NCBI RefSeq assembly: GCF_030053155.1
Contig: NZ_CP125642.1
Coordinates: 310,001 to 374,000 of the forward strand
Length of the DNA: 64,000 nt
From: Rhizobium sp. BT03
GTDB lineage: Bacteria; Pseudomonadota; Alphaproteobacteria; Rhizobiales; Rhizobiaceae
Direction: 5' to 3'
The translations under genes and the position numbers were made by a program. Below are positions 16,806-38,585 of the stretch, piece after piece. Every line of letters starts with the position of its first letter. Position 1 is the stretch's first letter. Under the pieces are notes generated by a model. It ran no database searches. It was given only the letters and a program-made list of their open reading frames with translations, and was not told the origin of the DNA.

Positions 16806-17273
16806 CTACTGCGCCATCTGCGGCTGCTTTGCCGCCCGCGCCGCGGTCAGTTCCGCGGTGGTGTGGTTCAGGCGGTCGGCGAGCACGCGCATGATTTCGA
16901 CGGCCATTTCGGGGAAGTCGCTGAGCAGCTTCAGGAAGTGCTCCTTGCTGATGCGCAGCACCTCGAGCGGCGAGGTGGCGCGCACCGTTGCCGTGCGCGA
17001 GACATCGCAGAGGATGGCGATTTCGCCGACGATGGAGTTGAGCTCGACATCGGCGACCTTGATCTCGCCGGCCGGCGAGGAGACGATGATGTCGGCGCTG
17101 CCGGAGAGGATGACATAGGCGGCGTCGCCGACATCGCCCTGGTGAAAGAGATCCTGGCCGGCCTTGTAGGTCATGCGATCGGAGGTGAAGGCCAAAAGCT
17201 TGAGCTTGGCCGGCGCAATCCTCGCAAAGATCGGCACCCGGCGCAGCATTTCGACTTCGTCTCTCAACAGCAT
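16806..17273 (-). CDS. Stand-alone cyclic-nucleotide-binding domain protein
   Basis: 155 residues containing one CNBD and no DNA-binding helix-turn-helix. Residues ~38-50 include the FHQGDVGDAAYVILSG turn, and the phosphate-binding cassette is GEIAILCDVSRTATV with the Glu and Arg used to bind cAMP or cGMP. A 25-residue helical tail ends the protein. It lies about 100 bases downstream of, and on the same strand as, the 904-residue ABC-like protein and probably shares its transcript. That suggests cNMP control of the membrane protein (inference). Three cyclase-type genes occur elsewhere in the window. Confidence 0.85.
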   Translation of the reverse strand: MLLRDEVEMLRRVPIFARIAPAKLKLLAFTSDRMTYKAGQDLFHQGDVGDAAYVILSGSADIIVSSPAGEIKVADVELNSIVGEIAILCDVSRTATVRATSPLEVLRISKEHFLKLLSDFPEMAVEIMRVLADRLNHTTAELTAARAAKQPQMAQ

Positions 17274-17371
17274 GAGCGTTTCAATCCCCTGACGCAGGGT
17301 TCTTGGAACCAGGCGCCTTCAATTCCGGACGTCCCCCCGGGAACGCCTACCATCGCCGCCCCAATAGAATA

Positions 17372-20086
17372 TTACGATAACAGTTCCTTGAACATCCCGT
17401 TTTTCTCGGAAAGTTCCGGATAGTTTCCGGCTTCCGCCAGCCCGCCGCGGTCGAAGAGCAGGATGCGGTCGAACATCTCGGCGAGCCGCGCATTGGAGAG
17501 CACCCAGATGATCGCCGGCCGCTTGCCCTCTTCGTGCAGGTCTTCGACGATGTTGCGGGTGATCTGATCCTGAACGCGCTGGTCGAGCGCCGACAGCGGC
17601 CGGTTGAAGATGAAATAGTCCGAGCGTTTCAGCAGCGCACGGGCGAGATTCAGCTTCTGCCGCTGCACCATGGTCAGCCGCTTGCCGCCGGAGCCGACGT
17701 CGAATTCCAGCCCGATCGACAGGACATCGTCGTAAAGATCGAGCGCGTCGAAGAGTTCGCCCATGATGGCGCGGATGCGGTCGGACGCGTCGGCCTGCTG
17801 ATAGGCAATGCGGCCGAACAGCACATTGTCCATCAGGCTGGCCGACGGGGTGAAACGCTCGGCATCGTAGCGCTCGATCAGCTCGGCGAGATCGGCCGGG
17901 ATATGCTCATGGAACTGCTTGCGGGCGCTGACGATCTTGTCCATCAGCTCGTCGGTCAGCAGGCCGAAGCGGTGGCGCGGCTCGATATAGGCGAAGCTCA
18001 GCCGGATGATGGCCGAACGTTCCTCGGGTGTGGCGTCCTCGAAGCGGCGGCTTTGCAGCTTCTGCAGCAGCGCCTGGTAGGTCGGAATGTCGTCCGCCGT
18101 CATGAAGGTCAGCTGCTGGAAGAACGGATGGTCCGGCGGCAGATCGTGGAAGAGTTCGACGGCGTTCTCGGCAATCTCCAGGCCCATGGCGTAGAGATCG
18201 GTGCTCAGGCCCGTCTCGCGGAACAGCTGCTGGAAATAGGGATGGGCGGCCAGCCGGCGGTTGGTCATCAGCGGCCGCTTCATCGTGCCGAACAGCAGGT
18301 TCTCACCGACCGTCGCCTGGGCGTTATAGGCGTCGAAATCGAAGGGCACGACGATGCCGTCGAGCCCTTCGTCGCGCAGCCGATCCCGCAGCGAGGCGCG
18401 CAGGGTTACGACGTGGTCGCTGACGGCCACATGCACGTCGGTATTGACGTTCGAGCGCAGCGCCAGATCGAGGATGTCCTGCGAGATCAGCACGGCGTCG
18501 AGCACCGGGCGGATGGCTTTCAGCAGATCTTCAGGCCCGCTGGCGCCGGCGGCCTGATAATCCACCCAGTCGCTGTTGAGGTCGAGCGTCGGATTGCCGG
18601 CCTTCACCGCCTCGACGGAATGCCATTTATACTCGAGCGCTTCCTTCTCGTCGTAGACGGGATCGGTCATCGGCGCGTGTTTGAGGCCGTAGAGCAGATT
18701 GCTGGCGAGCGAGCCGTGGAAGAAGAAGGTGTCGGCCGAGGCATAGGAGATGCGCCGGCCGGTGATCGATTCCGGCAAGTCCAGGAGGTCGCGCCCGTCA
18801 ATGGTGATGCGGCCGGAATCGGGCCAGACCATGCGGCCGAGCGCTTCGGCGAAGGCTTCGGCGCCGCTGCCGTTCGGGCCGACGATCGCCACCGTCTCGT
18901 TCGGCTTGATCTCGACGGAGACGTGATCGACGAGGCGGGCGCCGCTGTCGTCGGAAAGCGAGAGGTTGGTGACGACGAGCGCGCTGGTCAGCGCGCCGAC
19001 GGGGGCGGTGGCGAGCTCCTGAATGCGGCTGTCGATCAGCGGCTCGACGTTGAACTGCTCGTAGACCTGCTGGTACTTCACCTGCACGTCCTGGCGCATC
19101 TGGTCCCAGTCGATCAGTTCTTTCAGCGGCCCGGGCAGGTCCTTATAGGCCGATATGACGGCAACGAGCTGGCCGATGTCGAGCCGGCCCTGCAGCGCCA
19201 GGTAACCGCCGATCGCGTAGAACAGGAAGGGCGTGACCTGGGCGAGGAAGTTGTTGATGAACTTCACCAGGAACTTCCACTGGTAAAGGTCGTAGCGAAT
19301 CGAGAAGATCCGGCCGAGCCGCGAGGCGATGTCGGCGCGTTCGAGGTTGGAGGTGTCGTTGCCGTGGATCGTGCCGATGCCGTCGACGATTTCGCCGACG
19401 CGGCCGGACAGTTCGCGTGCCGTCAGCTGTCTCTGGCGGCCGAGATCCAGCAGGCGCTTGCGCATGCGGGGAATGACGACGGCCTGAACACCGACGATGC
19501 CGGCGGCGATCATGCCGAGCCAGAAATTCTGGACGATGATGAAGGCGAGCGCCGTGATTGCCTGACCGCCGAGAAGGGCGGGCGAAACGAAGGCATCGCC
19601 GGTGAAGCCGCCCATCGGCTCCACCTCGTCCTTGATCATCGTGGCGATCTCGGCCGATTTCACCCGCTTGAAGTGGATGGGCGGAAACCGCAGCACCCGG
19701 TCGATCAGTTCGAAGCGGATGCGCCGCAGCATGCGCTCGCCGAGCCGGCCCTTATAGGTGTTGATATAGAACTTGAAGAGACCGTTCAGCACCACCAGCG
19801 CCAGAAACACCAGGCTGAGGGCCATCAGCATCTGGAAGCGGTTGAGCTGCAGGCCTTGAAAGAATTCGACATGGCCGATCAGCGGAATGTCGTAGGCGAT
19901 GTGCATGAAGGTCTGCCTTGCGCCCGGACCTTCGAAACCGTCGCCCTGGATCGGTCCGTTGACGATCTGCTTCGGCAGGTCGAAAGACAGGAAATAGGGC
20001 ACCATCGAGGCGGCGACGACAGCCAGAATCCACAGCTGCTGCAGCCGCGTGTTCTTCCAGATGTAGCGGGCGAGGCTTTTTTCCAT
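17372..20086 (-). CDS. ABC-exporter-like membrane protein with non-catalytic NBD and large insertion
   Basis: 904 residues against ~600 for normal half-exporters. Residues ~15-320 form a type IV exporter membrane domain. The NBD is degenerate at every key motif: Walker A is GPNGSGAE (G403-E410, Lys lost), the signature region reads RLTMVQRQKLNLARALL, Walker B is FIFNRPLSALD (N828-R829 in place of Asp-Glu), and the H-loop reads VLSNARLA without His. Between Walker A and the signature lie ~290 extra residues. Three Q-loop-like blocks are spaced through it, ending NLLYG (N463), NLLFG (N596) and NVLFG (N754). It probably binds but does not hydrolyse nucleotide. Confidence 0.88.
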   Translation of the reverse strand: MEKSLARYIWKNTRLQQLWILAVVAASMVPYFLSFDLPKQIVNGPIQGDGFEGPGARQTFMHIAYDIPLIGHVEFFQGLQLNRFQMLMALSLVFLALVVLNGLFKFYINTYKGRLGERMLRRIRFELIDRVLRFPPIHFKRVKSAEIATMIKDEVEPMGGFTGDAFVSPALLGGQAITALAFIIVQNFWLGMIAAGIVGVQAVVIPRMRKRLLDLGRQRQLTARELSGRVGEIVDGIGTIHGNDTSNLERADIASRLGRIFSIRYDLYQWKFLVKFINNFLAQVTPFLFYAIGGYLALQGRLDIGQLVAVISAYKDLPGPLKELIDWDQMRQDVQVKYQQVYEQFNVEPLIDSRIQELATAPVGALTSALVVTNLSLSDDSGARLVDHVSVEIKPNETVAIVGPNGSGAEAFAEALGRMVWPDSGRITIDGRDLLDLPESITGRRISYASADTFFFHGSLASNLLYGLKHAPMTDPVYDEKEALEYKWHSVEAVKAGNPTLDLNSDWVDYQAAGASGPEDLLKAIRPVLDAVLISQDILDLALRSNVNTDVHVAVSDHVVTLRASLRDRLRDEGLDGIVVPFDFDAYNAQATVGENLLFGTMKRPLMTNRRLAAHPYFQQLFRETGLSTDLYAMGLEIAENAVELFHDLPPDHPFFQQLTFMTADDIPTYQALLQKLQSRRFEDATPEERSAIIRLSFAYIEPRHRFGLLTDELMDKIVSARKQFHEHIPADLAELIERYDAERFTPSASLMDNVLFGRIAYQQADASDRIRAIMGELFDALDLYDDVLSIGLEFDVGSGGKRLTMVQRQKLNLARALLKRSDYFIFNRPLSALDQRVQDQITRNIVEDLHEEGKRPAIIWVLSNARLAEMFDRILLFDRGGLAEAGNYPELSEKNGMFKELLS

Positions 20087-20427: not shown

Positions 20428-20880
20428 TCATGCCGCGACGTCGCGAAGCATGGCGTTCGGATCGGCATGGCTCATCGCTTCCGCGATCATATCGGCATCC
20501 TCATCGCCGATGCCGAACAAACCGAAGCGGAGCTGATAGCCCCAATTGGGGCCGACCCGGGTGAAGGCCAGCCGGCCGAGCAGCGGCCGGATCGGGGTTT
20601 CCTCCGCAGGCCGCCAGTCGACATCCCGCCGCCAGGGCCTGAAACCGCTTTCCATCTCCACCAGGTAGGGCGCGCCGTCGCGGGCCACACCGATCGCGGT
20701 GAAAGCCTGCAGGCGGTCCTTGCCGCCGAAGACGACGGTCGGCGAATAATAGATCACGCGATCCCCAGGCGTGATCCGCCGGAGGGGTGACGCCTTGCCG
20801 TGACAGACCTGCATGAAACCGGCTTGACGGCCGATGCGGACATGCTCTGCGGAGGCGACGGCGATCCAGGCTTTGGCCAT
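20428..20880 (-). CDS. EVE-domain protein
   Basis: 150 residues spanning a single EVE (UPF0310, PUA-like) domain. [26 protein letters not shown] is the N-terminal strand and pocket region, [16 protein letters not shown] the core GDxxxYYS motif, and [13 protein letters not shown] the C-terminal part. EVE domains bind modified nucleobases or RNA and are often linked to restriction or translation quality control. It starts three bases after the VOC gene stop, so the two are one operon under the palindrome at 21301. Confidence 0.88.
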
Positions 20881-20883
20881 GGC

Positions 20884-21258
20884 TCAAACCTCCTCGGCCA
20901 CGGTATAGACACGCAGGCGATGCCCATCGGGATCGGCGGCGACGAAGCTTCGGCCGAAATCGAGATCGGTCGGCGCCATGACGATATCGGCGCCCTTGGC
21001 CTGCCAATCGGCGTGGGTCGCATCGACCATCTCTGATGCGGCGACCTTGAACCCTATATCGCAGCCGCCGCCGGCTGCTGCCGGCGCGGGCTCGACGCCG
21101 GCCTTGCCCCAGAGACCGAGCCCCAAGCCGGAAGGCAGGATGAACATGGCGAAGGTTTCGCTCGCTTCCACGGGCTCCTTCCCGAGCAGCTTGGCGTAGA
21201 AGCGGGCGCTCGCCGGCGCGTCGGTCACGTAGAGAAGAATGCTGTTGCTGGCGGTCAT
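20884..21258 (-). CDS. VOC-family (glyoxalase/bleomycin-resistance-like) protein
   Basis: 124 residues from the ATG at 21258, which has AGGAGA upstream; 18 more codons are open but lack a ribosome site. ILLYVTDAPASARFYAKLLG is the first VOC beta-alpha unit, FAMFILPSGLGLGLWG the second, and GRSFVAADPDGHRLRVYTV the metal-side C-terminal motif. It is one module pair of a dimeric VOC enzyme, acting as a lyase, dioxygenase or antibiotic-binding protein. The palindrome 43 bases upstream matches the one before the WYL regulator gene, so it is probably that regulator's target. Confidence 0.9.
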   Translation of the reverse strand: MTASNSILLYVTDAPASARFYAKLLGKEPVEASETFAMFILPSGLGLGLWGKAGVEPAPAAAGGGCDIGFKVAASEMVDATHADWQAKGADIVMAPTDLDFGRSFVAADPDGHRLRVYTVAEEV

Positions 21259-21300
21259 AAGGGTCTCCTGTTGTTCGTTGGACAGCAGAACCTTATGACC

Positions 21301-21327
21301 TGATACTGCCAAATTCTGGCAGTATCA
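21301..21327 (-). promoter_or_regulatory. Operator palindrome before the VOC-EVE operon
   Basis: TGATACTGCCA (21301-21311) and TGGCAGTATCA (21317-21327) are perfect eleven-base inverted arms with a five-base spacer. A CATAAG box lies nine bases downstream of it on the minus strand, so the palindrome would cover the -35 region. Its core CTGCCA-N5-TGGCAG is repeated before the WYL regulator gene at 24134-24154. Confidence 0.75.
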
Positions 21328-21493
21328 TCCGTCTCGATGCGATATTGGCCCCCCAACACTAAAGGGGTACAGATATACGGTATGGTGATACGGGCGGCGT
21401 TTGCCATTGCCGTACAACCTTCCCGAAAATGCACACTGGCTGCGAAGATCAACAGGCCGGCAACGGACGCGTCGGTCGCCGGCCGACTGCGGT

Positions 21494-22327
21494 TCATCCC
21501 CCCGTAACGCTTTTCATGACGGCTCGCTGCATCGAGCGCGGTGTCAGGCGATTAGAAAATATGATGATCTTGTTCATGAACCCGGCAACTACGGAGGGCT
21601 TGCCTTGTGACAGCGCGCGGAGACCGCTTTCGGCGACAGGGCGGGGCTTCATCGTCAGAAGGCGCAGCATGCGCGAAACAGGGGCGCTAGCGGCCGAATC
21701 GAATCCGGTTTCGGTGTGTCCTGGGCAAAGGCAGGTGACAGTCACGCCTCGGGGGCTGAGTTCGTCGTGCAAAGCTTCTCCAAAGGAAAGGACGTAAGAC
21801 TTCGTTGCTGCATAGGCTGAAAACCCAGGGACAGGCTGAAATGCCAGAATGCTCGCGATGAGGAGAATCTGTCCGGATCCGCGAGTTGCCATATCCTGTC
21901 CGAAGATAAAGCTCAGTTCCGTTACCGCCGTGATGTTGAGCTGCATCATATCGGTCGTGCGCTCCAGCGGGGTGTCCAGAAAGTCCCCATGCAGCCCGTA
22001 GCCAGCATTGTTCACGAGAATATCGATCTGCAGCGACTTGTCGTCCAGGCTGCTTTTCAAACGAGCGGCAGCACCAGGGACTGCAAGATCGATCGGTTCG
22101 ACGACGATCTCGACACCGTATTTTTGTCGAAGCTCTATGGCGAGCTTCTCCATCGGCTCCCTGCGCCGGGCGGCGAGCACGAGATTTACCTTTTGCGCTG
22201 CCAAGAGTTCGGCATATTCGAGACCCATGCCGCTGGACGCACCGGTGATCAGGGCCCGCTTCGGCGCGGCACTATTCGGTTTTCCTACGAGGGACGTTTG
22301 CGTTTCCGCGTTAACAACATTTTGCAT
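21494..22327 (-). CDS. Short-chain dehydrogenase/reductase
   Basis: 277 residues from the ATG at 22327, preceded by AAAGGA; longer starts at 22348 and 22396 are open but less well placed. RALITGASSGMGLEYAELLA is the NADP-binding TGxxxGxG motif, DILVNNAGYG the NNAG motif, and SAYAATKSYVL the catalytic YxxxK with the Ser in the preceding LLIASILAF strand. It is a cytoplasmic oxidoreductase of the classical SDR type, similar to broad-specificity DltE/YqjQ-like proteins. It is divergent from a TetR gene, the usual arrangement for a repressor and its target. Confidence 0.9.
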   Translation of the reverse strand: MQNVVNAETQTSLVGKPNSAAPKRALITGASSGMGLEYAELLAAQKVNLVLAARRREPMEKLAIELRQKYGVEIVVEPIDLAVPGAAARLKSSLDDKSLQIDILVNNAGYGLHGDFLDTPLERTTDMMQLNITAVTELSFIFGQDMATRGSGQILLIASILAFQPVPGFSAYAATKSYVLSFGEALHDELSPRGVTVTCLCPGHTETGFDSAASAPVSRMLRLLTMKPRPVAESGLRALSQGKPSVVAGFMNKIIIFSNRLTPRSMQRAVMKSVTGG

Positions 22328-22406
22328 TGGTTTTCCTTTCAATTGCATGGATATTTCGGAGGAGCTGACACGGGTCGTGCTTGTTCGCCCCTGCAAAGTT
22401 GAATCT

Positions 22407-22664
22407 TCACCGGAGCATGACGTTCGGGATGCGCCCGGTCAGCTTTCCGTCTGGGGGATGGAACAGTTTGACGGCGTTCCACCGTCCCTGCTCATAGATG
22501 CCTTTGGCATGGCTCAGACGCCTGAAACCCACTACGTCGTGATCGGCACCTATTCCGCTGGCGCCGACGCTGCTGAAAGGCACGTCCTGCGCGGCATGCA
22601 TGATGGTGCCGTTGATTTTTGCTATGGCGTGCATGGTGCATTCCGATGTAGACAGAAGAAACAT
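22407..22664 (-). CDS. Possible small hypothetical protein in the SDR leader
   Basis: 85 residues starting MFLLSTSECTMHAIAKING and ending GRIPNVMLR. I recognise no family. Its ATG falls almost exactly at the predicted start point of a good promoter (22672-22700), so it would be leaderless; an inner ATG at residue 11 is an alternative with no clear ribosome site. It may instead be non-coding leader for the SDR gene. Treat as a candidate only. Confidence 0.25.
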   Translation of the reverse strand: MFLLSTSECTMHAIAKINGTIMHAAQDVPFSSVGASGIGADHDVVGFRRLSHAKGIYEQGRWNAVKLFHPPDGKLTGRIPNVMLR

Positions 22665-22671
22665 ACGCCTT

Positions 22672-22700
22672 TAGATAGGCGACAAAGTTACCAGTGTCAA
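22672..22700 (-). promoter_or_regulatory. Predicted sigma-70-type promoter driving the SDR side
   Basis: On the minus strand TTGACA (22700-22695) is followed after exactly 17 bases by TATCTA (22677-22672), close to the housekeeping consensus. Transcription would start near 22665 and reach the SDR gene after a leader of about 340 bases. It lies in the gap before the TetR gene, where a TetR operator would be expected, though I see no clean palindrome. Confidence 0.5.
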
Positions 22701-22730
22701 CAATGTATCCATGAGAAACTTTGAGGTCCC

Positions 22731-23348
22731 ATGCAGGCTGCACCCCACCGCCCCTATCATCACGGTGATCTCCGCCGCGCAATTATTGAAACTGCTCTGG
22801 ACATGCTTCGGACAGAGAAGGACTGGCAGTTCACGCTGCGGGAAGTCGCCCGTCGGGCAGGCGTCAGCCACGCGGCGCCCTACAAGCACTTTCCGGATAG
22901 GACTGCCCTTCTGGTAGAACTCGCCATGATTGGGTTCGATCGACTACGCGAGGCGCTGGTGGAGGCGAAACCCGAAGCCCCCAGATCGCTGCTCGAGGAG
23001 ATCACTCCGATATCTCTGGCATATGTCGCGTTCGGAACCGACAACCCGGCCTTATATCGCCTGATGTTCAGCGCGGAGGAGGGGCGGGCCGTGGGAATGC
23101 ATCTCGATCAAAGGGCGCTCGCGGTATTTGACGTCGTGCTGGACATGCTCGGACGCGGTCAGGCTGCTGGCACCATTCGCAAGCGGCCAGTCAGGGGACA
23201 GGCGACCGCCGCATGGGCGCTCATTCACGGCATCACCCTGCTTGCGATCGATGGACTTCTGGTGCCAGAAAAGGTCGGATCGGCGCCGCTGGAGGCAGCC
23301 ATTGCCACTCTGGTGGATGGGCTGGCAATCCCGCAGCCGAGCACTTAG
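22731..23348 (+). CDS. TetR/AcrR-family transcriptional regulator
   Basis: 205 residues. PYHHGDLRRAIIETALDML begins the TetR DNA-binding domain and LREVARRAGVSHAAPYKHFPDRTALL is its helix-turn-helix. The rest is a helical ligand and dimer domain of the WHG type (FGTDNPALYRLMFS block). It is divergent from the SDR gene with a ~400-base gap holding the SDR-side promoter, so it most likely represses that gene and itself. The inducer is unknown. Confidence 0.9.
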   Translation: MQAAPHRPYHHGDLRRAIIETALDMLRTEKDWQFTLREVARRAGVSHAAPYKHFPDRTALLVELAMIGFDRLREALVEAKPEAPRSLLEEITPISLAYVAFGTDNPALYRLMFSAEEGRAVGMHLDQRALAVFDVVLDMLGRGQAAGTIRKRPVRGQATAAWALIHGITLLAIDGLLVPEKVGSAPLEAAIATLVDGLAIPQPST

Positions 23349-23414
23349 CGGAAGAGCGGTCCTGCCCAGGCGCTCCGGCAGATGGGCCGGATCGCGAGCG
23401 GACACTGTGCCCTT

Positions 23415-24110
23415 TTAATGTTTAGGGGTCGATATTCCCTGGATCTCCCGCCACTGCTTCAGCAGCGCCTGCCGGCGCTTGGGATAACGTGTGTCGAGCG
23501 CTTGCGCTTGAACGATTCGATCCGTGCGAAACGAGCGGAAATCCTGGCGGAGTTCGCACCAGCCGAGGAGGACGCGCACCTGATCGAAAAAGGCAAGCGC
23601 GAAGGGCCACACCACACGCTCCGACGCCACGCCGGCGCCGTCGCTATAGGAGAGCGAAAGCTTGCGTTCGGTGCGGATCGCCTTGCGCAGCAGGGCCGGA
23701 TCGACCGAGTCGACGGGGATTTTGACGCCTGGCCCCACCAGAAGGGCGGAGGCCTCCAATGCGTCGCGCAATTCGGGCGGCAGCACGGCTGCGATCCGCG
23801 CCAGCGCATTTCGCGCCGCATCGCGTAAGTGATCGTCCCCTCTGTCCGCTACCCATCGGGAGCCGAGCACGAGCGCTTCGATTTCCTCAGGCGGAAACAT
23901 CAGCGGCGGCAGCAGAAATCCCGGTTTCAGGACATAACCGACGCCCGGTTCGCCCTCGATTGCCGCGCCCTGGGCCTGAAGGCTGGCGATATCCCGGTAG
24001 AGGGTGCGGATACTGACGCCGATCTCGTCGGCCAGCACCCCGCCGCTGACCGGCCGGCGGTGGCGGCGCAGTACCTGGAGAAGGTCGAGGAGGCGTTCGG
24101 AGCGGGACAT
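23415..24110 (-). CDS. WYL-domain HTH regulator (YafY/DeoR-like)
   Basis: 231 residues. An N-terminal winged helix (ERLLDLLQVLRRHRRPVSGGVLADEIGVSIRTLYRDIASL) is followed by GYVLKPGFLLPPLMF and a WYL-type domain in which the W-Y-L segment is VWPFALAFFDQVRVLLGWCELR, with RSFRTDRI after it. WYL proteins sense small molecules or nucleic acids. A TGCTGCCA-N5-TGGCAGCA palindrome 24 bases upstream of its ATG shares its core with the one before the VOC-EVE operon, pointing to self-regulation and control of that operon. The SDR/TetR pair lies between regulator and presumed target. Confidence 0.9.
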   Translation of the reverse strand: MSRSERLLDLLQVLRRHRRPVSGGVLADEIGVSIRTLYRDIASLQAQGAAIEGEPGVGYVLKPGFLLPPLMFPPEEIEALVLGSRWVADRGDDHLRDAARNALARIAAVLPPELRDALEASALLVGPGVKIPVDSVDPALLRKAIRTERKLSLSYSDGAGVASERVVWPFALAFFDQVRVLLGWCELRQDFRSFRTDRIVQAQALDTRYPKRRQALLKQWREIQGISTPKH

Positions 24111-24221: not shown

Positions 24222-25370
24222 TCAAAACGTCGAATTGCCGGCCAGCATGGAGCGAATGATGCCGGCGGTTTTCTCGGCGCCGTCGAGATCGAGCGAGACC
24301 GCCCCGCGGCGCGGCGCGGCGAGCGCTTTTTCGACCGCTTCCTTGACATGGCCTGGCGTCAGTCCCGTTTCCGGCAGGATGTCGGCGAGATCCAGCGCCT
24401 GCAGCCGTTCGGCGCGCACCGTCTGCTCGGTCTCGCCGCCGGCGACGAAGGGGATGAGGATCGCCCGGCATTGACTGCGCAGGAGGTCGCCGACCGTGTT
24501 GTAGCCTGCCTGCGAGATCGACACTTTCGCGCCGCGCAGCAGCGAGGGAAAATCCTTGCGGAAGCGCACCAGCGTCACGTTTGGGGCGGCATCCTGCGAC
24601 AGCGCGGCGAAATCGGCTTCCGGTAGGTTCGGGCCTGCGATCAGCAGCCAGCGCAGATCGGCCGGCAGCAGGGCCGCCGCCTCTTTCGCCGCGCCGATCA
24701 GCGCGGCGCCGACCGCGCCGCCGCCTGCCGATGCGATGATGTCGAAGGTTTCGCCCGGTTCCGGCGCCGGCGGCGCTGCGACGAGGCCGGTATAGCGCAG
24801 CCTGTCGGCAATCTCCGCCGTCAGCGGGAAAGTGTCCTCCAGCCTGGTGAAGCCGGGATCGCCGTGGACGAGCACGGCATCGAAATGCGCCCTGACCAGG
24901 GCTGCGGTCTCCGCGTCGCGGCCGGCCTTGCGGTTTTCCTGCAGGATGTCGCGCACCGAGCTCAAGAGTTTCGGCCGCGGTTCGGTCTTGTCGATCGCCG
25001 CAAGCAAGGGCAGCAGTTCGAAGCGCATCTGCCGCCGGCCGAAGGGGAAAGCTTCGATGATGACGACATCCGGCCTTGCGGCATGGAAGGCATCGAGCAG
25101 CAGATCGCGGCGGGCATTGAGGAAATCCTCGCCGGCTGGGCGGCCATCGGCGTCGGCCAGGCCGGAGAAGCCGGCATTGCTGGCGACGACCGGCGGCAGG
25201 GCCACAGTCTTGACGCCCTCGCCGGGAAAACCCGGCACCGGCAGGCCGCCGGTGACCACGGTGACGTCGAAACCGTCCTTGACCAGCGCATTGGCGATGC
25301 GGCTGGCGCGGGCGATGTGGCCGATGCCGAGCAGGTGCTGGACGTAGAAGAAGATACGCGGTGCCGTCAT
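24222..25370 (-). CDS. Glycosyltransferase, GT28/MurG-like
   Basis: 382 residues; the ATG at 25370 overlaps the preceding stop as ATGA, preferred over an upstream ATG at 25385. RIFFYVQHLLGIGHIARASRIANAL is the GT-B N-terminal Gly-rich loop (GxGHxxRA). The C-terminal half carries ISQAGYNTVGDLLRSQCRAILIPF, the donor-sugar motif of MurG/GT28-like enzymes, followed by GGETEQTVRAERL. It is paralogous to the protein encoded at 26624-27829. Third gene of a three-glycosyltransferase operon; donor and acceptor are unknown. Confidence 0.85.
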   Translation of the reverse strand: MTAPRIFFYVQHLLGIGHIARASRIANALVKDGFDVTVVTGGLPVPGFPGEGVKTVALPPVVASNAGFSGLADADGRPAGEDFLNARRDLLLDAFHAARPDVVIIEAFPFGRRQMRFELLPLLAAIDKTEPRPKLLSSVRDILQENRKAGRDAETAALVRAHFDAVLVHGDPGFTRLEDTFPLTAEIADRLRYTGLVAAPPAPEPGETFDIIASAGGGAVGAALIGAAKEAAALLPADLRWLLIAGPNLPEADFAALSQDAAPNVTLVRFRKDFPSLLRGAKVSISQAGYNTVGDLLRSQCRAILIPFVAGGETEQTVRAERLQALDLADILPETGLTPGHVKEAVEKALAAPRRGAVSLDLDGAEKTAGIIRSMLAGNSTF

Positions 25371-26614
25371 GACGCCTTCTGCCATTCGGCCTCGAACAGG
25401 CCGGTGAGCTGCCGGATGCTGGAGTGATAGTCGAAATCGTCACGCACCCGCCTTTCGGCGGCGTCGCCGAGGCGCTTGCGAAGCGCCGGGTCGCGGATCG
25501 CCGTCTCCAGCGCTTTGGCCAGTAGCGCCGGATCCTCCGGCGGCACCACCAGGCCGTTTTCGCCGTCCTCCAAAAGTTCCGGCACGCCGGATACCGCGGT
25601 CGAGAGGCAGACGAGCCGCTGGCTAGAGGCTTCCACCAGCACGTTCGGCAGGCCGTCGCGGTCGCCGTTGGCGGCAATCCGGCAGGCGAGCGCGAAGAGG
25701 TCGGCGCGGCGGTAATGATCGAGCACGTCTTCCTGCGCCAGGGCGCCCTTCCAGACGATGCGGTGGGAGAGGCCGAGCTCGGCGGCCAATGCCTTCAGCT
25801 TCGCCAGTTCCTCGCCGCCGCCTATATGGTCCATGCGCCAGTGGAGATCGCTAGGCAACAGGGCGAGTGCGCGCAGCAGCACGTCATAGCCCTTCTTCTC
25901 GACGGCGCGGCCGACGCTCAAGATGAAGGCGGGATCTGCCGGGTCGCTGCCGGTCCTCTCCGAACGCTCGCCGGCAAAGGCGCCGAACCGGGCGAGATCG
26001 AGACCGTGGTAGCTGAGGTGCACGGCATCCTTGCGGGATGTCAGGGCGCGCATGTGCTCATAACCTGTCCTGGTGCAGGTGACGGCCCAGCGGGCGCTGC
26101 CGAGTTTTTCCTGCAGCTCCCAGTCGGGCGACGTCCAGATGTCCTTGGCATGCGCCGAACAGGTCCAGGGTGTGCCGGTGAGGATGCTCGCATATTCCGT
26201 CACCGAAGCCGGCGTGTGGATGAAATGGGCATGCAGCCATTCGCCTCCATCCGGCCATTCGCGTGCCAGCACCAGCGCCTGGCCGAGACGGCGGAAGCGG
26301 TTGCGGGAGATGTCGCGTGGGAGATCCGCGAGGAAACGTTTGATCAGCGCCTTGAAGCCGGGCTTCGAGAAGCCGGCGATCAGGCCTTTCAGCACGCGGA
26401 TCGGCTCCTCGTGCAGATATTCCGGCAGGTAGACGACGCGCGCCTTGATCTCGTCATGCACGGGATGGCGCTTCTTGTCGGTCGGCCGGCGCATCGAAAT
26501 CAGCGTCAGGTCGAAGCCGGCCTTTTCCAAGCCGAGCAGCTCCTGGGCGATGAAGGTTTCTGATAGGCGGGGATAGCCTTTCAGCACGACGAGGATCTTG
26601 CGGCGTGGCGGCAA
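25367..26614 (-). CDS. Glycosyltransferase family 4 protein
   Basis: 415 residues. KILVVLKGYPRLSETFIAQELLGLEKAGFDL is the N-terminal GT4 start seen in exopolysaccharide glycosyltransferases (YPRLSETFI). FILSVGRAVEKKGYDVLLRAL opens the C-terminal nucleotide-sugar domain, and a LPNVLVEAS segment carries the second Glu of the E-x7-E element. It sits between two GT28-like enzymes with a nine-base gap upstream and an ATGA overlap downstream. A soluble GT-B enzyme acting on the cytoplasmic face of the membrane is likely. Confidence 0.88.
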   Translation of the reverse strand: MPPRRKILVVLKGYPRLSETFIAQELLGLEKAGFDLTLISMRRPTDKKRHPVHDEIKARVVYLPEYLHEEPIRVLKGLIAGFSKPGFKALIKRFLADLPRDISRNRFRRLGQALVLAREWPDGGEWLHAHFIHTPASVTEYASILTGTPWTCSAHAKDIWTSPDWELQEKLGSARWAVTCTRTGYEHMRALTSRKDAVHLSYHGLDLARFGAFAGERSERTGSDPADPAFILSVGRAVEKKGYDVLLRALALLPSDLHWRMDHIGGGEELAKLKALAAELGLSHRIVWKGALAQEDVLDHYRRADLFALACRIAANGDRDGLPNVLVEASSQRLVCLSTAVSGVPELLEDGENGLVVPPEDPALLAKALETAIRDPALRKRLGDAAERRVRDDFDYHSSIRQLTGLFEAEWQKAS

Positions 26615-26623
26615 GGCTGTGCC

Positions 26624-27829
26624 CTATTCCGCGACGAGGGAAAGGTGGCTGGCGCGGCCATCGATCCATCGGCCGACCGTCTGCGAGATGTGGTCGAGCC
26701 CTTCGAGATGCATGTTGCTGCCGCTCTTCGACGGCGGCAGGCGGGAAGGCAGACGCTTCAGCGCCTCGGACATGATGGTGGGATCGGCCGATTGGTCCGG
26801 CAGCAGCATATCGACGAGGCCGAGCGCGCTTGCCCGCTGGGCGCGCAGCAGCTGTTCCTCGCGCGGCTTGACCCGCGGCACGATGAGGGCAGGCTTGTCG
26901 AAGGAGAGGATCTCGCAATAGGTATTATAGCCGCCCATGGCGACGACGCCGGTGGCGCCGTCGATCAGCTCTTCCATGTGGTTGTCGAACTCGATCACCT
27001 CGATATAGGGAATGGCCTCGCCCTTCTGCACCAGCTTGGCGCGTTCGGCGGCCGGCATATAGGGACCGAGCACGACGAGCGCTTTCTGCGTCAGCGTCGG
27101 ATCGGCCTCATAGGCGTTCATCACGTCGTGGACGAGATCGGAGCCGTCGCCGCCGCCGCCTGTGGTGACGAGCAGGTAGTTATCCTTGCGGGCGTTGATC
27201 GAGGTCTTGCCCTTGGAGACGCTGCGCTGCAGGAAACCGACGAAATCCATCTTCCGGCGCAGGCTCGCCGGCACGTCGAGACCGACAAGCGGATCGTAGA
27301 AATCCGGCGGGCCATAGACCCAGACGCTGTCGTAATATTGGTCGATCTTCTGCATGATGCCGTTCCGCTTCCACTCGGCCTCGAGCAGATGCGGCGCGTC
27401 CATGATCTCGCGCAGGCCGAGCACCAGCACGGTGCCGCGGGCCTTGAGATAGGCAAGCGTATCCTCGACCTCGCCCTTCAGTCCCATCGGCTCCTTGTCG
27501 ACGATGAAAATATCGGGCTGGAAGGTTTCGGCCGTGTGGCGGATGCTCGATTCGCGCATCTTCAGCGTCTCGTGCAGGTCGATATGGCTGGCAAGCGAGG
27601 TATATTCGCCGTTGCGCAGCTTGATGACGCTCGGGATCTTCACGAAATCGACGCGGGCGCGGTAGTCGAAGGCGCCGGCGATCGTCGCGCCCGAAATGAT
27701 CAGGATGTTGAGGCCGCGATAATCCTCGACCAGCGCATGGGCAATGGCGCGACAGCGCCTGAGATGGCCGAGGCCGAAGGTGTCGTGACTGTACATGAGG
27801 ATGCGCGCATCTTCGAGACGTCTGGCCAT
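26624..27829 (-). CDS. Glycosyltransferase, GT28/MurG-like
   Basis: 401 residues from the ATG at 27829, which has GGAGGG six bases upstream; the frame is open for 25 more codons. ILMYSHDTFGLGHLRRCRAIAHALVE is the GT-B N-terminal loop (GLGHLRR), and GVVAMGGYNTYCEILSFDKPALIVPR the C-terminal donor-binding motif, with REEQLLRAQRA after it. First of the three-glycosyltransferase block, 96 bases after the Opp-type permease gene on the same strand. Probably builds an oligosaccharide or glycolipid together with its neighbours. Confidence 0.86.
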   Translation of the reverse strand: MARRLEDARILMYSHDTFGLGHLRRCRAIAHALVEDYRGLNILIISGATIAGAFDYRARVDFVKIPSVIKLRNGEYTSLASHIDLHETLKMRESSIRHTAETFQPDIFIVDKEPMGLKGEVEDTLAYLKARGTVLVLGLREIMDAPHLLEAEWKRNGIMQKIDQYYDSVWVYGPPDFYDPLVGLDVPASLRRKMDFVGFLQRSVSKGKTSINARKDNYLLVTTGGGGDGSDLVHDVMNAYEADPTLTQKALVVLGPYMPAAERAKLVQKGEAIPYIEVIEFDNHMEELIDGATGVVAMGGYNTYCEILSFDKPALIVPRVKPREEQLLRAQRASALGLVDMLLPDQSADPTIMSEALKRLPSRLPPSKSGSNMHLEGLDHISQTVGRWIDGRASHLSLVAE

Positions 27830-27925
27830 GGGTGTTCCCTCCGGGGTGAACAACATAGTTAGCACCCCCACCGTCCGGAGGCCACGTGGCGGGGGCGGTG
27901 CCATGAGGCGCCGCCGGGTTTTCTG

Positions 27926-29098
27926 CTATTTGTAGGGATCTGCCGCATCACGCAAGCCGTCTCCCAGAAAGTTGAACGCCAAAATGACAAGAACAACAGG
28001 AATGATCGGATAGAGCAGCCAAGGATAAAAGGCGATGACGCTGACGCTTTTTGCCTCGGTCAGCAGAATACCCCAGCTGGTGATCGGCGGGCGAAGGCCG
28101 AGGCCGAGGAAGGAGAGCGCGGTCTCGCCGAGGATCATGCCGGGGATCGAAATCGTCGCCGAGGCAATCAGATGCGACATGAAGCCCGGCACCAGATGCC
28201 GGCCGATGATGCGCGGCGTGCTGGCGCCCATCAGCTGGGCCGCCTGGACGTAATCCTCCTCGCGCAGCGCCAGGAGCTTGGAGCGCACGGCACGTGCTAG
28301 CCCGGTCCAGTCGATGATGCCGAGGATGACGGTGATGCCGAAATAGATGACGATCGGGCTCCAGGTCACCGGCATGATGGCGGCCAGCGCCATCCATAGC
28401 GGCAGGCTCGGCAGCGACTGCAGCACTTCAATCAGGCGCTGGACGACGAGATCGAACACGCCGCCCCAATAGCCGGCGAGACCGCCGATGACGATGCCGA
28501 GCACGAAGCTGATCGAAATGCCGATCAGGCCGATCGTCAGTGATATTCGCGCGCCGTAAAGGATGCGCGAGAGCACGTCGCGGCCGAGCCGGTCGGTACC
28601 GAGCAGGAACATCTGGCCGCCGATCGACGGGCAGACCAGATGATAGTTCGAAGCGACGAGGCCCCAGAATTTATAGGAATCGCCGCGGCAGAAGAAGCGG
28701 ATCGGCTGCACGTCGTTCGGCCGGTCGGTATAGACGCGGTGCAGCGTGTCGAGATCGAGCGTCATGCTGCGGCCGTAGACGAAGGGACCGACGAACTCTC
28801 CCTTGTCGAAGAAGTGAACGCGCTGCGGCGGCGCATGGATGAAATCGACGTTGCGGGTGTGCAGGCCGTAGGGCGCAAGGAATTCGACGATCAGGATCAT
28901 CAGGTAGACGGCGGCGAGAAAGATGCCTGAAGTCAAGGCCAGCCTGTGCTGCTTGAACTTCCACCACATCAGCTGCTTCTGCGATGCAAGATGGATGCGC
29001 GATTGCGCCGCCGTCATGGTCTCGGTCGCCAAGGGATCGAAAGGCGCGGTCGAGACGTAATGGGGAAGCGGCGCGCCGGGTGCGGGAAGGGGCGACAT
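27926..29098 (-). CDS. ABC permease, OppC/DppC-type, with large periplasmic insertion
   Basis: 390 residues; the ATG at 29098 shares a base with the previous stop (TAATG). After a cytoplasmic N-terminus (~70) and the first helix, about 95 residues of extracytoplasmic sequence (HTRNVDFIHAPPQRVHFF and on) precede the LGTDRLGRDVLSRILYGARISL motif. The EAA loop is REEDYVQAAQLMGASTPRIIGRHL. Ordinary OppC proteins are nearer 300 residues, so the insertion is notable; similar insertions occur in family-5 transporters for oligosaccharides or unusual peptides. It pairs with the OppB-like permease. Confidence 0.9.
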   Translation of the reverse strand: MSPLPAPGAPLPHYVSTAPFDPLATETMTAAQSRIHLASQKQLMWWKFKQHRLALTSGIFLAAVYLMILIVEFLAPYGLHTRNVDFIHAPPQRVHFFDKGEFVGPFVYGRSMTLDLDTLHRVYTDRPNDVQPIRFFCRGDSYKFWGLVASNYHLVCPSIGGQMFLLGTDRLGRDVLSRILYGARISLTIGLIGISISFVLGIVIGGLAGYWGGVFDLVVQRLIEVLQSLPSLPLWMALAAIMPVTWSPIVIYFGITVILGIIDWTGLARAVRSKLLALREEDYVQAAQLMGASTPRIIGRHLVPGFMSHLIASATISIPGMILGETALSFLGLGLRPPITSWGILLTEAKSVSVIAFYPWLLYPIIPVVLVILAFNFLGDGLRDAADPYK

Positions 29099-30096
29099 TA
29101 TTTGGTGCTCCTGCCTTGCAGACGGATGCGGGGATCGAGGAAGCCGAGGGCGATGTCGGAGATCAAAACGCCGATGACGTTGAGGAAGGCCAAAAACATC
29201 AGGAAGGAGCCGGCGAGATACATGTCCTGGCTCTGCAGTGCCTTGATCAGCATCGGCCCCGTCGTCTCCAGCGACAGGACGATGGCGACGATTTCGGCGC
29301 CGGAGATGATCGACGGCAGGATCGAGCCGATATCGGCGACGAAGAAGTTGAGCGCCATGCGCAGCGGATATTTGAGCAGCGCCCGCATCGGATGCAGGCC
29401 CTTGGCGCGCGCCGTCGTCACATATTGCTTCTGCATCTCGTCGAGCAGGTTGGCGCGCAGCCGCCGGATCATGCCGGCCGTACCCGCCGTGCCGACGATG
29501 ATCACGGGGATCCACAGGTGGGAGAGGATCGAGCGTGCCTTCTCCCAGCTCATCGGCGCCGAGATATATTGCTGGTCCATCAGATGGCCGATCGAAATGC
29601 CGAACCAGATATTGGCGAAATACATCAGGATCAGCGCCAGCATGAAGTTCGGGATGGCGATGCCGAGCAGGCCGAGGAAGGTCAGCCCGTAATCGCTCCA
29701 GCTATACTGGTGCGTGGCCGAATAGATGCCGATCGGAAAGGCGATCAGCCACGTGAGCAGGATGGTCGTGAAAGAGACCAGGATCGTCAGCCACAGGCGC
29801 TCGCCGACCACGTCGGAAACCGGCATCTGGTATTCGAAGGAATAGCCGAAATCGCCGTGCAGCATGCCGCCGACCCAGTAGAAATAGCGCACGATCTCCG
29901 GCTTGTCGAAGCCGTATTGCTGGCGCATCTCCTCGATTTCCTGGAGATTGGCGGTCTCGCCCGAGGCGCGCAGCTCGGCGATCTGGCTCTCGAAGAAATC
30001 GCCCGGCGGCAGCTCGATGATGGTGAAAACCAGCGCCGAAATGACGAAGAGCGTCGGCACCATGGCGGCGATGCGCCAGAGAATGTATCTGAGCAC
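29098..30096 (-). CDS. ABC permease, OppB/DppB-type
   Basis: 332 residues. MLRYILWRIAAMVPTLFVISALVF is the standard OppB first helix, ELPPGDFFESQ the following conserved loop, YVTTARAKGLHPMRALLKYPLRMAL the EAA loop, and FLAFLNVIGVLISDIALGFLDPRIRL the C-terminal end with the DPRIR motif. Six helices are expected. The start is three bases after the binding-protein stop, and its own stop is coupled to the next permease. Confidence 0.92.
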   Translation of the reverse strand: MLRYILWRIAAMVPTLFVISALVFTIIELPPGDFFESQIAELRASGETANLQEIEEMRQQYGFDKPEIVRYFYWVGGMLHGDFGYSFEYQMPVSDVVGERLWLTILVSFTTILLTWLIAFPIGIYSATHQYSWSDYGLTFLGLLGIAIPNFMLALILMYFANIWFGISIGHLMDQQYISAPMSWEKARSILSHLWIPVIIVGTAGTAGMIRRLRANLLDEMQKQYVTTARAKGLHPMRALLKYPLRMALNFFVADIGSILPSIISGAEIVAIVLSLETTGPMLIKALQSQDMYLAGSFLMFLAFLNVIGVLISDIALGFLDPRIRLQGRSTK

Positions 30097-30099
30097 GCC

Positions 30100-32007
30100 T
30101 CAGGCCTCCTTGTACCAGAATGCATCCGGCATGTAGATGCCGAGATAGGAGGTGGGATCGAAGCCGTAGAGGGCCTTCTCCGGCAGGTTCTGCAGCTTGG
30201 CGGCGCGAAGGATCGGCTGCAGCGTGCTGTTGATCAGGCCGATCGAGAACACCTGCTGCGTATAGAGCGACAGCATCTTGTGCCAGATCACCTGGCGCTC
30301 TTCGAATTTCGCCGTCGAGCCCCATTGTTTGAGCAGGTCGACCAGTTCGGCCGCTTCAGGCAGGTCGGGGGCTGCACCCTCCTGGCCGGCGGAGAGGTAA
30401 TGCATGCCCCAGAGCGGCCATTGCAGCTGATCGTCGAGGGTCGGCGCCAGTCCCGAGGGCGACATGTCGGCTGTGGGAACGCCATTGTCGAGGCCGTACC
30501 AGATCGACATCATGATTGAGCCGCTCATCGCGCGGTTGCGGAAGACGTCGCGCTGCGAGGTGCGGGTATAGAGCGCAAGGCCGATATTGGCCCAGTGATC
30601 GTGCACCAGCTCCAGCACGTCGGTATCGAGATTGCTCTCGCCGGCGGTTTCGACGGTGATCTCGGCGCGCCGCCCGTCCGGCAGCAGCCTGATGCCGTCA
30701 TCGCCGCGCTTGGTCAGGCCGATCTCGTCGAGCAGGCGGTTGGCCTCGTCGGCATCGAACTTCACGTAGGCATCGGCATATTCCTGCTTGAACAGCGGGC
30801 TGTCGGGCAGGACGGTATCGGCGCTCGGCGTGCCGAGCCCGTAAAAGGCGACCATGTTGATCTCATGCCGGTCGATCGCCAGCGACAAGGCGCGGCGCAG
30901 GCGCACGTCGCGGAAAAGGCCGCGCCATACCTCGTCGGCGCAGTTGAGGTTCGGCAACAGCGTGATGCGCGAGCCGCGCGCCACCTTCCAGAGATTGACC
31001 TTCACCGGGAAGCGCTTCTCAGCTTCTTTCAGGAACGTATAGTCGTTGAAATCGATGCCGGTCGCCTGCAGGTCGGCTTCGCCGGCGCCCGCCTTGGCGG
31101 CGATGATCGACGAGGAGGAGACGTTGAGGATGAAGCGGTCGAGATAGGGAAGCTGCCGGCCGGTCTCGTCGACGCGGTGGAAGAACGGGTTGCGCTCGAA
31201 GACGAATTGCTCGGCCGGCAGCGCCGTCGTGTTGCGCCAGGGATCGAGCGTGGGCAGGTTGGGATTCTCAGGCCGGTAGGAGCGGGCCATCTTGATGTGC
31301 AGGTCCTGCCATTTCTTGACGCGGTTGGCCTGCATCATCTGTTCCATCTTCGCCTGGTCGGGCTGGAACTTCTTATGGAACTGCTTGAGATAATGCGCCG
31401 GCCCGACGATGACGAGCGGTATGGGGCCGGCGAGCGTCGGCAGGAACATCGGGTTGGGTTTGTCCCAGCTATAGCGCACCGTCAGCGGATCGAGCATCTC
31501 GAAGCGCGGCAGGCTGCCATGCGGGCGAAGCTCCAGCGCGCCGCCGCCCGGCGTCAGCTTGTCGTTGAGGATGACGTCTTCCCACCAGTAGCGGAAATCG
31601 TCGGCCGTGAATGGTTCTCCATCGGACCATTTATGGCCTTCGCGCAGCCTGAAGGTGAAGACCGTGTCGTCTTCCGAGCTGAAATCGGCGAGAATGTCAG
31701 GCTGGAACTGCAGGTGCTTGTCGTAGCCGATCAGGCGGGCATAGCCGTAGATCGTCATGAAGCGGATATCGCGCTGGCTGCCGATGATGGTGCGCACCGT
31801 GCCGCCGTAGCTGCCGGGTTCGAGCCCCATCTCCTTCAAGTTGACGATGCGCGGGCGGGCGGGAATGCGCTCGGCCATACCAGGCAGGCTGCCCGATGCC
31901 AGCCGCTCCTTGAGAAACTCAGGCTCGACGGCCTGCTCGGCCCGAAGCACGGTGGGCGCGATCGCCGCGCCGACGAGGCCGCCGAGAAAAGTGCGACGCG
32001 TCACCAT
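30100..32007 (-). CDS. ABC substrate-binding protein, family 5, Tat-exported
   Basis: 635 residues. The N-terminus [20 protein letters not shown] is a twin-arginine signal (RRTFLGG), so the protein folds before export. FTFRLREGHKWSDGEPFTADDFRYWWEDV is the SBP family 5 signature. The ATG overlaps the ATPase stop by one base (TGATG). The protein is longer than peptide-binding DppA (~535). With the insertion-bearing permease and the glycosyltransferases on the same strand, an oligosaccharide or glycopeptide ligand is possible; this is inference. Confidence 0.92.
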   Translation of the reverse strand: MVTRRTFLGGLVGAAIAPTVLRAEQAVEPEFLKERLASGSLPGMAERIPARPRIVNLKEMGLEPGSYGGTVRTIIGSQRDIRFMTIYGYARLIGYDKHLQFQPDILADFSSEDDTVFTFRLREGHKWSDGEPFTADDFRYWWEDVILNDKLTPGGGALELRPHGSLPRFEMLDPLTVRYSWDKPNPMFLPTLAGPIPLVIVGPAHYLKQFHKKFQPDQAKMEQMMQANRVKKWQDLHIKMARSYRPENPNLPTLDPWRNTTALPAEQFVFERNPFFHRVDETGRQLPYLDRFILNVSSSSIIAAKAGAGEADLQATGIDFNDYTFLKEAEKRFPVKVNLWKVARGSRITLLPNLNCADEVWRGLFRDVRLRRALSLAIDRHEINMVAFYGLGTPSADTVLPDSPLFKQEYADAYVKFDADEANRLLDEIGLTKRGDDGIRLLPDGRRAEITVETAGESNLDTDVLELVHDHWANIGLALYTRTSQRDVFRNRAMSGSIMMSIWYGLDNGVPTADMSPSGLAPTLDDQLQWPLWGMHYLSAGQEGAAPDLPEAAELVDLLKQWGSTAKFEERQVIWHKMLSLYTQQVFSIGLINSTLQPILRAAKLQNLPEKALYGFDPTSYLGIYMPDAFWYKEA

Positions 32008-33896: not shown

Positions 33897-34050
33897 ACCA
33901 ATGAAATTCCCCAGTCTTCTATGTTCCCGTTAAGGCACACTATCGTACCGCAAACGGGGTGTCTAGCAGATGACAATCAAGGGAAAACCGTAGCATCCCG
34001 CCGAAGTTCCCCAGGCGAGACGCGCAGATTCATAGCAGGCGTTCGAGTTT

Positions 34051-35394: not shown

Positions 35395-35728
35395 TCTCGG
35401 TATGATCCTCATAAGGCACGCCATCCCAGAGAAAAAAATCCCTCGGCCGGCACATTTTCATGCGCAGGTCACAAGGAAATCAGGATGTACGAGCGGTATT
35501 ATTTGTCAACGATCTGCCGAGAGCCCGGCAGCGGCACCCCTCTGCTCCCCATATTGGAGGACCGGACGGGCAGTCCTTTCACGGCGGTTCATTATTAAAA
35601 GTGAAAATAGGGATGCTGCATATGCGAAACAATGGGACCGGGATTTTTTTGTGCCCTCAAGTTGCAGCAAAGGACGGCGGCGGGGCATTTTGGCCACACC
35701 CGGCTAAGGGGTTATGTCGGCGAGACCC
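35395..35728. other. Intergenic region upstream of the cyclase, no assignable gene
   Basis: About 330 AT-richer bases lie between the cyclase start and the RIME-like repeat. It holds a 37-codon plus-strand frame from the ATG at 35485 (MYERYYLSTICREPG, with AAGGAAATCAGG upstream) that resembles nothing I know, and a T-run near 35645. It presumably contains the cyclase promoter, but I cannot place convincing -35/-10 boxes. Confidence 0.4.
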
Positions 35729-38461: not shown

Positions 38462-38585
38462 GTCATCCAGCTTAGCACAGACCCATGTTGCCACTGCAAC
38501 GCCATTTCCCATTTACGGCAATCGACTTGGCAAGGTTTCATGTGTTAGCACGCGCTGACGATTTTTCATCACGGATATGGATTAG

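Follow-up and report, generated by a model that had tools for sequence, protein, structure and literature searches.

A degenerate ABC-exporter-like protein with a triplicated helical module and a conserved partner of the cyclic-nucleotide-binding-domain family in Rhizobium

What can an exporter fold be used for once the residues that drive it with ATP are gone, and why should its gene stand beside that of a protein with a predicted cyclic-nucleotide-binding domain? This question is raised by two genes in a 64,000-nucleotide stretch of Rhizobium sp. BT03 (contig NZ_CP125642.1, positions 310,001 to 374,000; G000:C3:310001-374000), the whole of which is called the window below. An original prediction, made from the sequence alone, had described a catalytically dead relative of ATP-binding cassette (ABC) exporters, enlarged within its nucleotide-binding domain (NBD) and paired with a free cyclic-nucleotide-binding domain (CNBD) protein. 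Its observations were confirmed overall and proved to extend further than had been noted, while its interpretation is partly supported: the pair may, as a hypothesis, form the non-pumping device gated by cyclic nucleotide monophosphates (cNMPs) that was proposed. The two genes, encoding proteins of 904 and 155 amino acids (aa), are as follows.

17372-20086, minus strand: 904-aa ABC-exporter-like protein with degenerate NBD (open reading frame, Pfam, AlphaFold2 (AF2) model and structural matches)
16806-17273, minus strand: 155-aa stand-alone CNBD protein (PF00027), with its phosphate cassette at 16989-17027

The genes lie head to tail with a gap of 98 bp. The ABC gene is present in a single copy in the Rhizobium genome, where the runner-up match was an ordinary exporter at 78.5 bits. 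For comparison we sampled 160 loci, 80 from close relatives and 80 mostly more diverse, of which at least one was counted twice (L239 and L081 appear to be one contig). A nonredundant alignment of 157 sequences included the window protein and left out L238, L085 and L241, which were partial, frameshifted and truncated, together with one identical sequence; an alignment of 86 rows also included the window protein and did not contain L219.

The 904-aa protein has kept the transmembrane domain (TMD) of an exporter, as had been predicted.

19052-20086, minus strand: exporter TMD, residues 1-345 (conservation in the 86 rows)

Pfam placed PF00664, the type I exporter fold, at residues 87-312 (57.1 bits, cut-off 28), and PF00005 covered the first part of the NBD alone (387-480); these were the sole Pfam families found at E up to 1, and no C39 peptidase domain was detected. 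AF2 prediction of the full chain by itself, which had been suggested as a check, gave a mean pLDDT of 85.3 and a pTM of 0.81, and the top structural matches of the model were type I exporters, with TM287/288 and TmrAB among them. The exporter-fold regulator SUR2B was also among the close fold matches. The TMD is the best-conserved part of the protein, with 68 of 344 positions conserved at 90% or more, whereas the two NBD lobes have 6 such positions of 109 and 7 of 104. It also holds most of the invariant residues, some of them polar or proline (Q186, N278 and P286).

The catalytic motifs of the NBD, by contrast with those of canonical exporters, are degenerate. The positions below were assigned by alignment to canonical exporters.

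18677-19003, minus strand: NBD N-lobe, residues 362-470, with degenerate Walker A GPNGSGAEA at 18854-18880
17663-17677, minus strand: degenerate signature LTMVQ, residues 804-808
17600-17617, minus strand: degenerate Walker B strand, residues 824-829 (N828, R829)
17495-17497, minus strand: H-loop position, S864

To score catalytic residues, the NBD lobes of the 86 members and of six canonical exporters from the Rhizobium genome were compared in an alignment at eight core positions (Walker A Lys and Ser/Thr, Q-loop Gln, signature Ser and second Gly, Walker B Asp, catalytic Glu and H-loop His). The motif substitutions named in the original prediction were all correct in this comparison. The window protein carries A409 for the Walker A Lys, E410 for the Ser/Thr, A451 for the Q-loop Gln, LTMVQ for LSGGQ, N828 for the Walker B Asp, R829 for the catalytic Glu and S864 for the H-loop His, and retains the D-loop Asp (D835). 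It thus scores 0/8, whereas each of the six canonical exporters scores 8/8.

Scores across the family ranged from 0 (26 members) to 6 (L205 alone), and none of the 86 has all eight residues. Retention per residue was 34 for the Walker A Lys, 8 for the Ser/Thr, 13 for the Q-loop Gln, 38 for the signature Ser, 11 for its second Gly, 17 for the Walker B Asp, 28 for the catalytic Glu and 13 for the H-loop His. Of the 86, 69 have Glu or Asp in place of the Walker A Ser/Thr, the magnesium-binding residue. In the clade of the window protein itself (18 rows), Walker A has A, G or V followed by E or D, the Walker A Lys is absent throughout and Walker B reads N-R in 18/18, so that close homologues do not carry normal Walker motifs. 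The description 'catalytically dead' needs correction for the family, where it is a matter of degree and two members (L178 and L205) retain the Lys, Asp, Glu and His together. On a TMD tree the Lys state changed 14 times and the Glu state 15 times, with the direction not resolved; repeated loss of both would be the simplest reading. The alignments support a loss of ATPase residues that is fixed in this lineage and graded across the family.

Conservation within the protein differs by domain. In a canonical exporter with 24 orthologues from the same genomes, the NBD was better conserved than the TMD (0.739 versus 0.644; 0.740 and 0.648 in a 27-row version), while in 25 members of the degenerate family the order was reversed (0.533 and 0.515 for the NBD versus 0.653 for the TMD), TMD conservation being similar in both. 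For this control, L261 did not pass the motif filter, no use was made of L274 and L275, and the extra Rhizobium loci L247-L249 were dropped for the matched repeat.

These data bear on the alternative that the protein is still driven by ATP, either as one half of a heterodimer whose canonical half is encoded elsewhere or through an unusual ATPase site, the CNBD merely tuning its activity. Exporters with one degenerate site are well known, and TM287/288 and TmrAB appear among the structural matches; distant members also retain the motifs in part (at best 6/8), with the D-loop Asp present in 73/86 and a signature Gln/Glu in 76/86. However, no canonical exporter half was a conserved neighbour among the gene clusters of 81 loci, and a generic ABC ATPase cluster, although found at 19 of these, occurred on both strands and at scattered distances. 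Because the window protein has lost the Walker side as well as the signature side, a canonical partner would be expected to complete neither site, and the NBD is far less constrained than that of a canonical exporter. We consider continued ATP drive unlikely.

The NBD is also greatly enlarged, by an inserted stretch that contains repeats.

17852-18676, minus strand: inserted stretch, residues 471-745 (column lengths in 157 members; fold prediction of its own)
18455-18757, minus strand: module copy 0, the original Q-loop/helical segment, residues 444-544 (NLLYG, N463; hhalign)
18176-18415, minus strand: module copy 1, residues 558-637 (NLLFG, invariant R563 and N596; hhalign and invariant columns)
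17699-17938, minus strand: module copy 2, residues 717-796 (NVLFG, invariant R722 and N754; hhalign and invariant columns)

The insert had been put at about 290 residues and measures about 275; its columns hold 248-347 residues in the 157 nonredundant members and 275 in 110 of them. It carries two further copies of the module running from the Q-loop to the helical subdomain, with the pattern 'FD..YN..ATV.ENLLFG ... helices ... GL' at 558-637 and 717-796, and copy 2 runs back into the canonical NBD C-lobe. That the three blocks ending NLLYG, NLLFG and NVLFG reiterate part of the NBD, as had been suspected, was borne out by profile-profile comparison, in which copy 1 matched copy 2 with a probability of 98% (E 2.8e-14) and copy 0 matched copies 1 and 2 with 93% and 92%. 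The stretch preceding copies 1 and 2 is repeated as well (540-590 versus 690-745, 97%). The original copy, which is broken by about 40 residues, was the weakest, with 78% and 89% in shorter windows and 29% when the long units of copies 0 and 2 were forced into a global alignment. N596, N754, R563 and R722 are invariant in the 86 rows, and N463 is conserved in at least 90%. Folded alone, the insert reached a pLDDT of 92.4, and the isolated model had no significant Foldseek match.

Low ratios of nonsynonymous to synonymous substitution (dN/dS) were obtained throughout the protein. Against 74 relatives, in pairs that are non-independent since each includes the window protein, the TMD had a median of 0.051 and the NBD C-lobe one of 0.073, while the N-lobe and the insert gave 0.122 and 0.138. 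The highest values from single pairs were 0.13-0.37, so that the protein is clearly maintained rather than decaying. An ordinary exporter in decay might explain the frequent changes of catalytic residues on the tree, whose direction is not resolved, but the reading frame is kept, no region has a median dN/dS above 0.14, the insert is nearly constant in length and R563, R722, N596 and N754 do not vary; these observations contradict decay and leave it a very small probability.

The partner protein matched PF00027 at 70 bits (cut-off 27.5, E 1.6e-19) and no other Pfam family at E up to 1; no DNA-binding domain was found among these matches, which separates it from CRP/FNR regulators. Among 132 nonredundant of 158 CNBDs, the phosphate cassette retains G83 in 132, E84 in 125, R93 in 131 and T94 in 118, so the intact cassette of the original prediction is a family trait, retained while the NBD motifs were lost. 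The CNBD gene directly follows the ABC gene on the same strand at 146 of the 160 loci and is fused to its C-terminus at 11 (L203, L206, L209, L210, L212-L216, L219 and L236; proteins of 976-1103 aa). Given that the Rhizobium genome has just 12 PF00027 matches in 6.9 Mb, this adjacency is not due to chance, and the co-conservation of the two genes supports a real partnership at the gene level. CNBD fusions to MFS transporters are noted in PMC10710835.

No CNBD was found at 3 of the 160 loci (L168, L238 and L241). L241 is a second copy in its genome and matches residues 1-896. L238 (G167:C4) has a 413-aa open reading frame related to the membrane domain alone (38% over residues 86-338), and tblastn of its 12-kb locus detected neither a significant CNBD nor any further part of the family protein. 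In several genomes with a fused CNBD, the glycosyltransferase (GT) gene described below is distant or on another contig; at L236 GT genes are adjacent.

Three features that the original prediction did not include emerged around the pair, namely co-occurrence with a set of RedA/RedB-type GTs and two further items that the window encodes on the same strand as the pair, an oligopeptide importer and a class III cyclase. The genes concerned occupy 24222-35424.

24222-25385, minus strand: third GT of the set (PF04101)
25367-26614, minus strand: RedB-type GT (PF00534; name from R. etli CIAT 652)
26624-27904, minus strand: RedA-type GT (PF04101; the gene at the matching place is named redA in R. etli CIAT 652)
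27926-33896, minus strand: oligopeptide ABC importer with two permeases, a substrate-binding protein (PF00496) and an ATPase (open reading frames, Pfam and gene order in relatives)
34051-35424, minus strand: class III adenylate/guanylate cyclase, 457 aa (PF00211, E 1.8e-6)

The annotations of R. johnstonii pRL11 and R. etli CIAT 652 show a matching gene order, with two of the GTs named redA and redB. The gap between GT and ABC genes is 182 bp in R. johnstonii 3841 and 165 bp in R. etli CIAT 652; in the window, genes for EVE (by Pfam), VOC, SDR, TetR-type and other regulator proteins (by reading of open reading frames) lie between them at 20428-24110. Across the 81 clustered loci the GT set stands beside the ABC-CNBD pair, usually divergently: RedA-like genes, the third GT included, occurred at 58, RedB-like GTs at 53, other GT4 genes at 41 and a histidine phosphatase at 25. 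Pfam gave no match for one of the RedA-like representatives. Downstream, a PF12692 methyltransferase was found at 23 loci or an MBL-fold hydrolase at 11. The hydrolase follows the CNBD gene at L222, L223, L224, L093, L082 and six more loci, with PF12706 in the sole member scanned, and could be a candidate cyclic-nucleotide phosphodiesterase.

The ABC family was found in 129 of 385 sampled alphaproteobacterial genomes (about a third) and in 37/37 genomes of the genus examined, and in a phylum-wide draw 27 of 398 genomes matched, all from the same class or closer. A RedB-like GT was found once in 41 of 42 chosen ABC-bearing genomes, within 10 kb of the ABC gene in 33. In the 385 genomes, searched with different limits for ABC and GT (E 1e-60 and 1e-80), 122 had both, 7 the ABC alone (G104, G131, G187, G229, G287, G315 and G326) and 3 the GT alone (G085, G352 and G384; 86, 78 and 91% complete), corresponding to a Fisher p of 2.6e-87 that ignores shared ancestry.

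Such co-occurrence persists where ABC and GT genes are not neighbours (e.g. G439, G361 and G214), which together with SUR2B among the close fold matches favours a pure signalling or scaffold device resembling SUR, through which no substrate passes and which regulates the GTs or another membrane protein. The invariant residues, on the other hand, lie mostly in the membrane domain and not in the NBD, and invariant polar and proline TMD residues are expected if something passes through or binds in that domain. We regard a device of this kind, without a substrate, as somewhat unlikely.

The cyclase has a narrower association. Homologues of the window cyclase alone, searched at E 1e-25, lay within 15 kb of the ABC gene in 16 of 42 genomes: 10/10 of the genus, 5/5 of the rest of the family (two of them just 35-36% identical), 1/8 of the order and 0/19 of more distant genomes. 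The Rhizobium genome has 26 PF00211 matches. A second class III cyclase domain lies in the window at 48704-49252 (PF00211, E 1.5e-22; G000:C3:358704-359252), and beyond the first cyclase a DUF3095 protein is encoded on the same strand at 37286-38512 (PF11294, E 3.5e-130), as at the matching place in pRL11.

A cyclase near a CNBD and a membrane protein recalls anti-phage defence of the Pycsar type, and the CNBD indeed matched PADLOC profiles of Pycsar effectors and cyclases (E 8.7e-18 to 2.7e-9). This match is likely generic to the fold, however, and presence in all 37 genomes of the genus examined is not the sporadic, mobile distribution typical of defence genes. With low dN/dS, a cyclase homologue rarely near outside the family and a stable link to one GT, a defence role is highly improbable.

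We therefore place first, with a little less than even confidence, a cNMP-controlled, non-hydrolysing, exporter-like gate or switch that serves a surface-glycan pathway, a pure scaffold being its main variant. An exporter-fold motor would have been turned into a signal receiver, with its membrane domain under full constraint and an NBD that no longer cycles ATP and has grown by two additional copies of the segment from the Q-loop to the signature helix. The adjacent CNBD protein would bind cyclic nucleotide, dock on the enlarged NBD pair and shift the membrane domain between states. In exporters the region from Q-loop to signature is the part that contacts the coupling helices; because the insert lies between these two motifs, a CNBD docked on it could move the membrane domain directly. 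The output would feed a surface-glycan or glycoconjugate pathway of the RedA/RedB GTs: the device could be a regulated scaffold for these enzymes, or it could let a lipid-linked product across as an ATP-independent gate or flippase. The analysis demonstrates the degeneracy, the repeats, the selection, the pairing and fusion and the co-occurrence with the GT, whereas the cNMP ligand, the docking site, the gating and the glycan role are inferred. A bolder version is possible but rather doubtful: cyclic nucleotide would replace ATP as the conformational driver, the triplicated module would dock the CNBD, and the family would serve alphaproteobacteria as a flippase or channel, gated by cNMPs, for glycan precursors.

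Several observations weigh against this gate or switch. With the Walker A Lys kept in 34/86 members, the catalytic Glu in 28 and the H-loop His in 13, and all of K, D, E and H in L178 and L205, ATP binding or hydrolysis may persist in some members. The link to the cyclase hardly extends past the family (15/15, against 1/8 in the order and 0/19 beyond), the presence/absence counts are uncorrected for phylogeny, and four of the seven genomes with ABC and without GT reach a completeness of 97% or more (G104, G229, G326 and G287, the last having 10% contamination). In the nearest characterised case, HetC, the CNBD was protected by ppGpp and not by cAMP, according to PMC10986499.

The ABC-CNBD family is a natural case of an exporter fold without its motor, tied to a second-messenger sensor. 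Rhizobia host many cyclases, and the family is a candidate for a direct output of their cyclic-nucleotide signalling. The prevailing source name, 'ABC transporter ATP-binding protein', is misleading for it. The family also points to a glycan pathway. Among the genes that PMC11103875 gives as important for root colonisation is pRL110056, described as an O-antigen biosynthesis gene; by gene count along pRL11 it may be one of the neighbouring GTs or the nucleotide-sugar dehydrogenase, although the old tag could not be mapped. In the literature searched, which left subscription journals mostly outside, we recognised no paper describing the ABC-CNBD family and likewise found no description of the glycan pathway.

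Among known systems, the genes directly upstream bear the names or roles of the R. etli opt operon (oligopeptide importer with redA/redB), as annotated in R. etli CIAT 652. That operon was reportedly the subject of a study by Vos et al. in 2007. The type I exporters MsbA, TM287/288 and TmrAB are generally known to keep intact catalytic motifs in at least one site and to have no such insert between Q-loop and signature, and the six exporter controls of the same genome, unlike the 904-aa protein, have intact motifs. SUR1/2 and CFTR are likewise familiar exporter-fold regulators, differing in that they are full-length ABCC proteins that still bind ATP and have neither a CNBD partner nor a repeated helical module. 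HetC of Nostoc PCC 7120 resembles the family in joining an ABC exporter fold to a PF00027 domain that is needed in vivo; as described in PMC10986499, it has an N-terminal CNBD, a C39 peptidase domain, an essential ATPase Glu and ppGpp as its ligand in vitro. In the Rhizobium family the CNBD is instead separate or C-terminal, no peptidase domain was found and the ATPase residues have been lost. In sum, the three traits of the family (lost ATPase residues, a helical module in three copies and a CNBD that is nearly obligate) occur together in neither HetC nor SUR/CFTR.

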